A stretch of DNA of 59,753 bases from Ignavibacteriae bacterium HGW-Ignavibacteriae-2 (GTDB lineage: Bacteria; Bacteroidota; Ignavibacteria; Ignavibacteriales; Melioribacteraceae). The stretch's first letter is position 1. Each line of letters starts with the position of its first letter. The notes beneath the pieces are model-generated. The model had not been told where the DNA came from. It saw nothing but the letters and a program-made list of their open reading frames with translations, and did not search any database. Both the position numbers and the translations under genes were made by a program. Of this stretch, positions 48,671 through 51,401 are shown one piece after another. The stretch covers positions 5,001 to 64,753 of the forward strand of contig PGYT01000001.1 of assembly GCA_002839805.1 (NCBI GenBank), given 5' to 3'.

Positions 48671-50752
48671 TTAAAATGCTTCGCCGATTCCGAGATGAAA
48701 TACTAGTGCACTTCCTAATATATTCTTTTTGTTGAAAAAACTTTCCCGATTGTTGGGATCGTAAAAGTTAAAACCGAAGTCAAGTCTGATAGGAACAATT
48801 TCCGAGTAATATCTAAAACCAAAACCGACTGCTACGGCTAGTTTATTGAACTTAAATTCATTAGGCCCCATAAAAGTGTTTCCATAATCAACAAAAAATG
48901 CCGAGCCTAAGTTGCCCAAAAACCGCAATCGAGCCTCAAATGAACCTTCCAATTGGAAGTACCCGCCTAATTCTTCTCCTCTAATTAAATAGGCCTCTAA
49001 AGTTTCCGGAGTAAGTGATTCTATGTTGATTTTAGTAGTGCCAGAAACCAACTCCCTTGCCTTCCATCCTCTTACGGAGTTACTTCCACCGGAAATAAAT
49101 CTTTGGTTAAAAGGTACAAAGAATTTATCTCCTGAAAACGTATGAATCTGACCGATTGAAAATTTAACACCCAATGTTGAGTTTCCATTGGATTCAAAAG
49201 GTATAAAGGCAGCGCTTGTTGCCAGAACTTTATAATATTGCGGTTCGTTAAAATCAATTTTGAATATTTTACTTACAAAATATGGAACCAGATTGGCATT
49301 CTCCAAAACCAGAATAAGCGAATAACCACTTGTTGGAAATATAAAATCATTCAATTTAATCGTCCGGGCTTCCAACCCAATTAACGAGTTATTGGATGTG
49401 AAAGTGGGAGTGCCGAGCGTGTCCAAAGCCTGGATGGTTATCAATTTTTTAAGGTAATTCGATTTATAATAAAATTTTGTGTGCTCGTAATTTAGATAAG
49501 TAGTTAAAGACGATAAGTAAACTTTTTGTGGCAGCTCAAAATTAAAACTGAGTTTACTACCTATAATTGTTGCGTTATAATCTCCTTTCCTTTTTTGGAG
49601 TGTTAAATAGTTTTCGAGCCGGGTAAATATTGGACTGCCGAATAAAAATGGTTGATCTAACAATACCCTGACATCGCCGTAACCATCAATTGTGGTATCC
49701 GAAATAACAGGATTGGATAAAAACTCAATTAAATTTTGTGAAGCGGCTGAAGTTATAAAATTAAATTTCCGCGCATTTCCAAAAAAATTTTTTCGGGTGA
49801 ATCCAAAACTTAAACCAAGATTTAGAACGTTGTTTTCGTTATTTATAATAACTTCGGGCGAAAATTCATTTAACAGACCAATATCAGTACTTATTTGCAG
49901 TGGTACGGTATTTCCGCTTGTATCCGCTGTAATACCTGCAACTAAAGCGGAATTGAAAAAATTGGTTCTATATAGTCTTGTTTGCGACATTTGAAATTTG
50001 CCAAAATTATAAAACTCCCCCGGTTTTACATTTACAATCCCCGATATTAATTCATCATCCACCAAATCTTTGCCTATGCCCGACTTCTCAACTCTTACAT
50101 TACTAATCACATACCTTTTACCGGGAATAATGTTTAAATTAACATCAGCAGTGCTTTTTATTGTATCTATAATAACTTCAGGCAAATCACTTGTTGCAAG
50201 CATTAATCCTTTATTTTTAAGATAGGTCAAAATTTCTACTTTGATCTGATCAACAATGTTTTTCGAGAAAATATCATTAGTGTCAATTTGGGAGATTTCT
50301 TTTATATGTGCTTTAAAATCATTATGAATTTTTTCAATCCCTTTAACCGAAAAAGATTTGAAATAAACCGGTTTTCCTTCATAAATATTATAAGTTATGG
50401 ATGCTTTACTTGAGGCTGTATCAATATTATATTTGTATGAAAATTGTGATTCAAAATAACCGTTATCGTAATAAAAATTTGACAGAGCGTTTATATCACT
50501 TTGAATAAGAGTGGAATCAAAATAAACGGCTTCCTGCCCAAACCCTATTATTTTATTAAGAAATTGAGACAGCCAACCTGGCGATTCTTGAGAGACAATT
50601 ATGCTAGACAGCCTTGAGTTTGAAATGTTCTCATTTCCGCTAAATTGTATTTTATCCAATTCAATCAATTTTTTTTGAGAGAACACAAATGGCGAACTCA
50701 AGAAATAGGCTAATGATATAAGAATAATATATTTTGAGTAAATACGATTCAA
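48671..50752 (-). CDS. Omp85-superfamily outer membrane protein (TamA/BamA-like)
   Basis: The 693-residue protein has a signal peptide (about 1-25) and three POTRA-like periplasmic domains (about 30-260), the first containing the IDKIQFSGNENI start. A 16-strand beta-barrel follows (about 290-693) with the conserved barrel-lid motif RFISGGSNSVRGW near 550 and a final strand ending in a Phe. Three POTRA domains favour a TamA-like role over BamA, which usually has five. Substrates are unknown. It lies 22 bases after the L,D-transpeptidase-like gene, which is an envelope setting. Confidence 0.85.
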   Translation of the reverse strand: MNRIYSKYIILISLAYFLSSPFVFSQKKLIELDKIQFSGNENISNSRLSSIIVSQESPGWLSQFLNKIIGFGQEAVYFDSTLIQSDINALSNFYYDNGYFESQFSYKYNIDTASSKASITYNIYEGKPVYFKSFSVKGIEKIHNDFKAHIKEISQIDTNDIFSKNIVDQIKVEILTYLKNKGLMLATSDLPEVIIDTIKSTADVNLNIIPGKRYVISNVRVEKSGIGKDLVDDELISGIVNVKPGEFYNFGKFQMSQTRLYRTNFFNSALVAGITADTSGNTVPLQISTDIGLLNEFSPEVIINNENNVLNLGLSFGFTRKNFFGNARKFNFITSAASQNLIEFLSNPVISDTTIDGYGDVRVLLDQPFLFGSPIFTRLENYLTLQKRKGDYNATIIGSKLSFNFELPQKVYLSSLTTYLNYEHTKFYYKSNYLKKLITIQALDTLGTPTFTSNNSLIGLEARTIKLNDFIFPTSGYSLILVLENANLVPYFVSKIFKIDFNEPQYYKVLATSAAFIPFESNGNSTLGVKFSIGQIHTFSGDKFFVPFNQRFISGGSNSVRGWKARELVSGTTKINIESLTPETLEAYLIRGEELGGYFQLEGSFEARLRFLGNLGSAFFVDYGNTFMGPNEFKFNKLAVAVGFGFRYYSEIVPIRLDFGFNFYDPNNRESFFNKKNILGSALVFHLGIGEAF

Positions 50753-50774: not shown

Positions 50775-51401
50775 TTATGGCCTAATAAAAACTTTTGTGC
50801 CAACTTTAACTACTGAGTAAAGTTCATCAGCATTTTGATTGTTTATAGCTATCGATCCATTAGTCCAATTAAAAATAAACGGTAAATTCCTGAATATTAC
50901 ATCGTATTCACCAATACCATGAATTCCAATGTCCGATCCCAACGAGTTATTTTTTAATGGATAATTGCCGATTTTAATTTCAGACATATAACTATTATAT
51001 TCTTGTCGCGATATAAAATTTGCTCTCAGCGCTTCAACAGCATCGTTTTCATTAGGATAATCAAGCAAAAACATTTTATGGTACTTATGTTTCGAATAAA
51101 TTTTACTTATTTTATAGACACCTGAGGGTGTTACAAATTCACTCGATGCAAATTTTCTGTGCGTTTTACTGCGTCCAAATACAGCTTTATAGGATTTTAC
51201 AAGAACTGTGTCCTCGTACAATAATAGTTGATGTTTGCTCTTTTCAATTACCAGTTTCACATTCGATAATGAATCGAATCCTTTGCTTCGCATTTTCTCT
51301 ACAAGGGAAACTTCGTTCAGGTTAAGAATTATCCCATAAATTAATAACCCGATCAAAAACAACATTCCGCTGCAGATGAAATAAACTACATTTTTTAACA
51401 C
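50775..51401 (-). CDS. L,D-transpeptidase-like (YkuD) protein with catalytic Cys replaced by Ser
   Basis: The 208-residue protein has an N-terminal membrane anchor (about 7-26) and a YkuD domain (about 48-207). Family members cross-link peptidoglycan through a Cys in an S/T-x-G-C motif following a His-Gly motif. Here the His is present (IGIHGIG, His161), but the motif reads WTNGSIAINNQ, so Ser183 stands where the Cys should be. The codon is TCG (50853-50855), two changes away from a Cys codon, so this is not a simple read error. The protein may be a serine variant or a non-catalytic cell-wall binder. Otherwise the fold segments are intact. It is the first gene of the Omp85-yicC-gmk-rpoZ run. 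Confidence 0.85.
   Translation of the reverse strand: MLKNVVYFICSGMLFLIGLLIYGIILNLNEVSLVEKMRSKGFDSLSNVKLVIEKSKHQLLLYEDTVLVKSYKAVFGRSKTHRKFASSEFVTPSGVYKISKIYSKHKYHKMFLLDYPNENDAVEALRANFISRQEYNSYMSEIKIGNYPLKNNSLGSDIGIHGIGEYDVIFRNLPFIFNWTNGSIAINNQNADELYSVVKVGTKVFIRP

Follow-up and report, generated by a model that had tools for sequence, protein, structure and literature searches.

The window analyzed here, the whole 59,753-nucleotide stretch of contig PGYT01000001.1 of Ignavibacteriae bacterium HGW-Ignavibacteriae-2, carries on its minus strand, at positions 50775–51401, an open reading frame with a GTG start that encodes a protein of 208 aa, hereinafter P0001. Residues 50–206 match the Pfam YkuD domain (PF03734; E = 1.3e-17; score 65.1 bits, cut-off 23.4), and all 54 aligned members of its family also match this profile at E ≤ 0.01. 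An earlier note on this DNA, which gave no strand, had described an L,D-transpeptidase fold with serine in place of the catalytic cysteine, and this description stands: instead of the family WTxGC motif, P0001 contains WTNGS (N178-W-T-N-G-S183), with I-H161-G located upstream of it. The codon at the catalytic-cysteine position, Ser183, is TCG (50853–50855, minus strand), indeed two changes away from the Cys codons TGC and TGT, and His161, at the general-base position, is encoded by CAT (50919–50921, minus strand). His161 is thus in place, but the catalytic Cys of the (S/T)xGC-type motif, which defines the active L,D-transpeptidases, was tested for and is absent; P0001 is therefore a YkuD-fold protein outside this group of enzymes. 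No other PF03734 match occurs in the 4.16-Mb genome, which is 99.92% complete.

The protein begins with a hydrophobic segment (residues 5–27; 51321–51389, minus strand) that was judged by eye to be a putative membrane anchor. Positions F15, G18, Y22, G23, and N27 of this segment are conserved across the Ser-YkuD family, with F15 and Y22 each present in 140 of 141 rows and G23 in all 141; F15, Y22, and G23 are family-specific. The YkuD fold domain, as delimited by an AlphaFold2 model and VIA Z scores, spans residues 44–208 (50778–51272, minus strand) and includes a family-specific loop, L173-P174-F175, that leads into N178-W179 of the motif (50865–50885, minus strand). Among the filled rows of the family alignment, L173, P174, and W179 are invariant (141/141), and F175 and N178 are each found in 140 of 141.

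As the earlier note had observed, an Omp85 gene lies 22 bases further on. Its open reading frame starts at 50752 on the same strand and encodes a 693-aa Omp85 protein with POTRA domains (48671–50752, minus strand; PF01103, E = 4.3e-28; PF07244). Past it lies what we take to be a YicC-like gene, whereas the reading frames upstream of P0001 are presumably malic-enzyme-like and frr-like. The neighboring Omp85 scores 189.2 bits with the BamA equivalog model TIGR03303, below the cut-off of 297.15, and the BamA equivalog of this genome is another gene (418.4 bits). Nine Omp85 matches were found in the genome, one of them (L192) in a protein that also has a patatin domain. TamB (PF04357) had no match in this 99.92% complete genome, and the control genomes matched in 6 of 14 cases. 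The possibility that the neighboring Omp85 is BamA or TamA was ruled out, given that the scores are under the cut-offs.

Distribution of the Ser-YkuD family

Of 58 relatives, 54 matched P0001, and a 54-row profile found matches in 145 of 164 genomes from the order Ignavibacteriales, although in two of these (G054 and G102) via low-scoring proteins alone. The class sample gave matches in 56 of 197 genomes; five proteins from family f13 scored 235–251 bits, whereas the others outside the order scored at most 64.1. The phylum sample, at E 1e-12, gave matches in 95 of 395 genomes, and nothing outside the class exceeded 128.4 bits. The line between family and outgroup was drawn at 150 bits (HMM score), the interval between 105 and 171 being empty. 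No relative of P0001 was found in 26 stretches of viral contigs.

The first alignment comprised 160 rows and, after removal of five duplicates (the window's own gene twice, L116, L033, and L047), 155 rows, namely 142 from the family and 13 from the outgroup, with L104 and L105 being halves of one gene. Loci L060–L089 were omitted as repeats; seven of them proved to be new genes and were added, bringing the total to 148 genes from 148 genomes, of which 143 belong to the order (P0001 included) and five to f13, a family of the same class. The codon, column, and tree counts refer to the 155-row set without these seven genes, and the tree additionally omits two truncated outgroup rows as well as L104 and L105. 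The more distant YkuD proteins number 33, 13 from the order and class and 20 from the phylum. They derive from 20 genomes fetched among the 56 that matched in the phylum but lie outside the class, and from 7 fetched among the 21 weakly matching class genomes that belong neither to the order nor to f13; 6 weak Cys-type proteins of the order itself are included.

Column 183 holds Ser in 147 of the 148 subfamily genes, Asn in one, and Cys in none, such that a sequencing error or a lone mutation is ruled out as the source of the serine in P0001. Alignment of homologs, which the earlier note had proposed as a check, accordingly finds Ser fixed in this subfamily, and the opposite outcome that it had envisaged, all homologs having Cys, did not materialize. 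The single Asn183 member (L178, from 2061 on the plus strand; NWTDGNVAIS) also has Gln in place of His161. Conversely, all 33 distant relatives have both Cys183 and His161. With Ser in the family and Cys in all of these relatives, the replacement is most simply explained by a single event on the stem of the subfamily; the Ser-YkuD gene may also have been transferred between the order and f13. Among 140 codons for Ser183, TCA is the most common (71), followed by TCT (29), TCG (27), and TCC (10), whereas AGT (2) and AGC (1) are rare, that is, 137 TCN against 3 AGY codons.

Within f1, the family of the window (34 sampled genomes, G000–G033), the Ser protein is encoded in 32 genomes and represents the only PF03734 match in 28. 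One extra weak match is present in each of G004, G009, G028, and G030; G020 has just a different weak match and G031 none. In f2 and f3, additional YkuD proteins are common. Members from the genus g30 (L100, L101, L102) are among the most divergent of the Ser family, with Glu at position 161 in two of the three and the cysteine pair described below absent or shifted, and two g30 genomes (G031 and G162) have no match to the gene.

Gene order around the Omp85 gene

In 147 of 148 loci, the Ser-YkuD gene is followed on its own strand by a downstream Omp85 gene, either immediately or after a gene for a lipoprotein-like protein. A stricter search requiring start codons recovered Omp85 in 136 of 141 rows; the misses L012, L144, L178, and L104 are near contig ends, whereas L034 (the same as L047; f3), in which the YkuD gene and the lipoprotein-like gene are present and Omp85 is not adjacent, is a real exception. 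In f1, Omp85 is the next gene; in 59 of 60 measured loci it starts somewhere from 53 bases within the YkuD gene to 75 bases past its stop, and in the remaining one at 516.

The lipoprotein-like protein, of ~210 aa, is encoded after the YkuD gene and before Omp85 in 67 of 68 f3 loci and in all five loci of both f2 and f13, as detected with a search model built from five of its sequences; the same family was not found in the f1 loci. Examples include L046:1402–2028 (minus strand), L024:816–1547 (minus), and L094:3170–3841 (plus). Most of the examples inspected by eye have a lipobox-like start, and none of the four scanned yielded a convincing Pfam match. In four of the five f13 loci, Omp85 is ~1.6 kb away, and in L090, also from f13, an NAD-epimerase-like gene separates it from the lipoprotein-like gene.

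The genes on the other side are more variable. Within the fetched stretches, maeB was found upstream in 54 of 141 rows and frr in 51, one row having both, and maeB is upstream in all seven added loci; in the f13 loci L090 and L094, the upstream genes are presumably queD/queC/queF-like. Persistence of the pair across these differing upstream genes indicates that the pairing has been kept through rearrangement. A strict dependence is not borne out: in 14 of 15 tested genomes of the order without the YkuD gene (out of 19 such genomes), Omp85 is retained, and Omp85 therefore does not need the YkuD protein. The YkuD gene has been cleanly lost several times, frr or maeB on one side and Omp85 or the ~210-aa gene on the other being kept with no YkuD gene in between. 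In 4.5–5 kb stretches around the genes of 20 Cys-type relatives from the phylum, no open reading frame matched this Omp85 at E 1e-5, in a single-sequence search that could miss a distant one. Judging from gene order, we consider it fairly likely that the Ser-YkuD protein is functionally tied to Omp85, and the proximity that the earlier note had briefly mentioned turns out to be the most informative hint at function.

Loss of catalytic residues and retention of the fold

The statement of the earlier note that the active-site His is kept applies to P0001 and fails for 30 of the 148 subfamily members: position 161 is occupied by His in 118 genes (111 of 141 filled rows), Gln in 26, Glu in three, and Ile in one. 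On the best quick tree, computed with the trait columns masked, the state of this position changed at least 19 times, the lower bound being 8 when branches with SH-aLRT support under 95 are resolved most favorably, versus a single change at position 183 on the quick tree. Ser183 is retained in 29 of the 30 non-His members. Among potentially compensating residues in these 30 rows (H, D/E, K/R, C, Y, or S/T), only Tyr177 is enriched (0.60 vs 0.23), and it is not persuasive as a replacement base.

Comparison of the columns that are at least 94% constant in the Cys types shows which parts of the domain have been preserved. P92, G94, G162, W179, and T180 are kept in all 141 rows of the Ser family, as are T91 (140/141), P116 (142/142), G182 (140/141), and G201 (137/141). 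By contrast, besides C183 (0/141) and H161, relaxation affects K54 (21/141, mostly replaced by Arg), G156 (75/140), I158 (109/141), G155 (126/140), Y115 (128/142, the rest being Phe), and K83, which is invariant in the Cys types (33/33) and differs in 15 of 140 Ser-family rows; relaxation thus extends beyond the catalytic pair.

The consequences of such a replacement have been studied in two engineered enzymes. LdtMt2 C354S formed no product and, according to earlier reports cited in that study, does not bind several penems and carbapenems covalently (PMC11410929), and LdtJ C390S is inactive (PMC12548408). Activity of LdtJ is, according to its authors, dispensable for growth fitness and shape (PMC12548408), an example of how such a protein might have a role other than catalysis. 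Taken together, ordinary cysteine transpeptidase chemistry has very probably been lost in the Ser-YkuD family.

The family also has a characteristic pair of cysteines. C99 and C147 are both present in 127 of 142 rows (Cys99 in 136 of 141 filled rows and Cys147 in 128 of 142), and C147 is missing at its column in five of five rows without C99 compared to 9 of 136 rows with it, although an independent-pairs test on the tree yielded 3–4 pairs, too few to reach significance. P0001 has neither residue, carrying Ser99 (51105–51107, minus strand) and Tyr147 (50961–50963, minus strand) instead. The two cysteines are a probable disulfide that is missing from the Cys-type relatives and was lost in this species. 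Cys99 as a relocated nucleophile is ruled out, given that P0001 has Ser99 and that Cys99 travels with Cys147.

Despite these losses, the predicted fold is that of YkuD proteins. The AlphaFold2 model of the domain, obtained from 6 sequences, has a pLDDT of 83.5 and a pTM of 0.82, with mean pLDDT of 59–63 in blocks 101–110, 121–130, and 131–140 as numbered in the model, the LPF loop being within these. Of 476 chains picked by Foldseek, 86 matched the model at Z ≥ 8, and the best 50 of these 86 have LDT/YkuD-type titles, except for 4xxt (amidase/peptidase/peptidoglycan-binding). The highest scores include Csd6 (4XZZ; Z = 16.2, VIA), Pgp2 (6XJ7 and 6XJ6; 15.5), and Bd1075 (7O21; 14.3), with alignments spanning 119–129 residues, followed by B. 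subtilis YkuD (14.2, tied with Bd1075) and DpaA (12.6). The full-length model (pLDDT 67, active-site loop below 50) was kept out of the argument; its Foldseek matches are mostly YkuD enzymes. No PDB chain matched the single P0001 sequence at E ≤ 1, whereas in a profile search against solved structures DpaA (8IKR) was the best match (E = 2.6e-5), followed by Csd6 (4XZZ; 4e-5). Ten of the 54 members match NF040599, the NCBIfam profile for the DpaA/YafK amidase, at E ≤ 0.01 (best, 2.4e-6), P0001 itself not being one of them.

In the profile alignment, Lys83 of DpaA corresponds to Lys83 of P0001 (51153–51155, minus strand; K in 125 of 140 family rows) and Tyr109 of the DpaA substrate cleft to Tyr107 (51081–51083, minus strand; Y in 124 of 142), whereas the equivalent of the DpaA Cys143 is Ser183. 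DpaA K83A has no activity and Y109A retains 0.7%; docking places Lys83 on the D-center carboxylate of diaminopimelate, and the corresponding residue of Csd6 is Lys107 in loop 1 (PMC10653827). From these correspondences, the chances that the Ser-YkuD pocket binds a peptidoglycan stem appear to be about even.

Possible roles and comparison with known systems

The reading that we prefer, and whose prospects we regard as evenly balanced, is that P0001 is a pseudo-transpeptidase, probably anchored in the inner membrane, that binds peptidoglycan stems and assists a non-BamA Omp85. The subfamily would have retained the YkuD fold together with a large part of the pocket that receives the stem peptide in the DpaA/L,D-carboxypeptidase branch, while losing the Cys-His chemistry. 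The N-terminal helix is predicted to hold P0001 in the inner membrane with the domain facing outward, and the pocket, including Lys83, Tyr107, the W-T-N-G-S turn, and the LPF loop, may grip the diaminopimelate stem and leave it uncut. P0001 would then serve the Omp85 of the same cluster, perhaps by positioning it at the peptidoglycan or by letting it through, and in f2, f3, and f13 the genetically linked lipoprotein-like protein encoded between the two could take part. Several observations fit this scheme poorly. His remains in 118 of 148 members, so some constraint persists at this position; Ser, which can act as a nucleophile, was fixed rather than Ala or Gly; and K83 is not invariant, the relaxation being wider than the catalytic pair. 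The Omp85 role is further weakened by the 14 of 15 genomes with Omp85 and no YkuD gene, by the repeated loss of the latter, and by L034, where the YkuD gene has no adjacent Omp85; adjacency, moreover, is no proof of contact. An active serine enzyme, with Ser183 as the nucleophile of a carboxypeptidase, amidase, or transpeptidase that is possibly less carbapenem-sensitive, would account for the near-fixation of Ser (147/148) in both TCN and AGY codons, for the intact W-T-x-G turn, and for the His of P0001 and most other members. Serine, however, depends on a base more than cysteine does. Given that 30 of 148 members have Gln, Glu, or Ile instead of His, that Ser persists in 29 of these, and that nothing was seen to make up for the missing base, such an enzyme is improbable. 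Serine chemistry on this fold has been reported for Lpg1514 via Ser132 (PMC13400389), but Ser at the catalytic position itself inactivates LdtMt2 (PMC11410929) and LdtJ (PMC12548408). Thus, as to whether the protein uses Ser or only binds peptidoglycan, which the earlier note had left undecided, the loss of His without compensation and the inactivity of engineered Cys-to-Ser enzymes favor the second option as far as catalysis is concerned, binding itself being what we infer from the pocket.

The pocket might, alternatively, be dead altogether and peptidoglycan no longer held, with the protein serving as a scaffold whose only contact is Omp85, the lipoprotein-like protein, or some other protein of the envelope. 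The relaxation of K83, G156, and His relative to the Cys types is in line with this possibility, as is the Omp85 that follows in 147 of 148 loci, and the LPF loop, which is nearly invariant, resembles an interaction surface, as do the conserved anchor positions (F15, Y22, G23); the retention of K83 in 125 of 140 and of Y107 in 124 of 142 rows, and the conservation of W179, T180, and G182 as in the Cys types, nevertheless make it unlikely. It is also conceivable that the joint cluster of the YkuD gene and Omp85 is no more than a historical legacy. The Omp85 genes kept in 14 of the 15 tested YkuD-less genomes and the unpaired YkuD gene of L034 are compatible with mere neighborhood, which is nonetheless distinctly improbable in view of a pairing that survives maeB, frr, and que-like upstream contexts and of the 20 Cys-type phylum relatives with no Omp85 match nearby, even if that search could miss a distant one. 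Returning to the pseudo-transpeptidase, the loss of the essential Cys in a gene that was kept beside Omp85, an outer-membrane insertion gene, suggests that a dead enzyme has been reused as a wall-reading partner. A broader proposal, namely an envelope module that occurs across the order and differs from both BAM and TAM, in which a dead transpeptidase anchored in the inner membrane reads stems and, with a second Omp85 and, in part of the lineages, a lipoprotein, forms a peptidoglycan-gated device for outer-membrane insertion or transport, is tentative and on balance somewhat unlikely.

Several implications follow. Fixation of Ser in 147 of 148 genes and the status of the protein as the sole YkuD match in 28 of 34 sampled f1 genomes imply that the YkuD fold can be selected for something besides transpeptidation. 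How outer-membrane machines handle peptidoglycan in their way is a long-standing question, and the near-constant Omp85 neighbor offers a natural system in which to test it. On a practical note, a Pfam match alone should not lead to annotation of these genes as active, carbapenem-sensitive transpeptidases. Literature searches, which left subscription papers mostly uncovered, found no natural Cys-less YkuD/L,D-transpeptidase pseudoenzyme family, including in the searched passages of a 2025 review (PMC12729407), and searches on Ignavibacteria or Melioribacter and peptidoglycan, with the same coverage, found no such family either.

Among known systems, the L,D-carboxypeptidases Csd6, Pgp2, and Bd1075 share the fold of P0001, and the loop 1 Lys is common to Csd6 and P0001. 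Bd1075 works with a catalytic Cys, and Pgp2 reportedly possesses an accessory NTF2 domain, unlike P0001, which begins with the anchor and stops directly after the YkuD domain. Csd6 likewise uses a catalytic Cys (PMC10653827). The diaminopimelate protein amidase DpaA/YafK/LdtF is the nearest by profile, with K83 and Y109 aligned, but its Cys143 is replaced by Ser in P0001, which would act, at most, like the half of DpaA or Csd6 that does the reading. The nearest published idea that we found is the serine chemistry of Lpg1514, a YafK protein in which Ser132 is required for nitrocefin hydrolysis and His166 contributes; this serine, however, is a different one, located off the catalytic-Cys position, and Cys174 is retained (PMC13400389). 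Finally, LdtJ C390S and LdtMt2 C354S carry the identical Cys-to-Ser exchange, which was made in the laboratory in those two enzymes, whereas in the Ser-YkuD family, which occurs across an order, it is natural and fixed.
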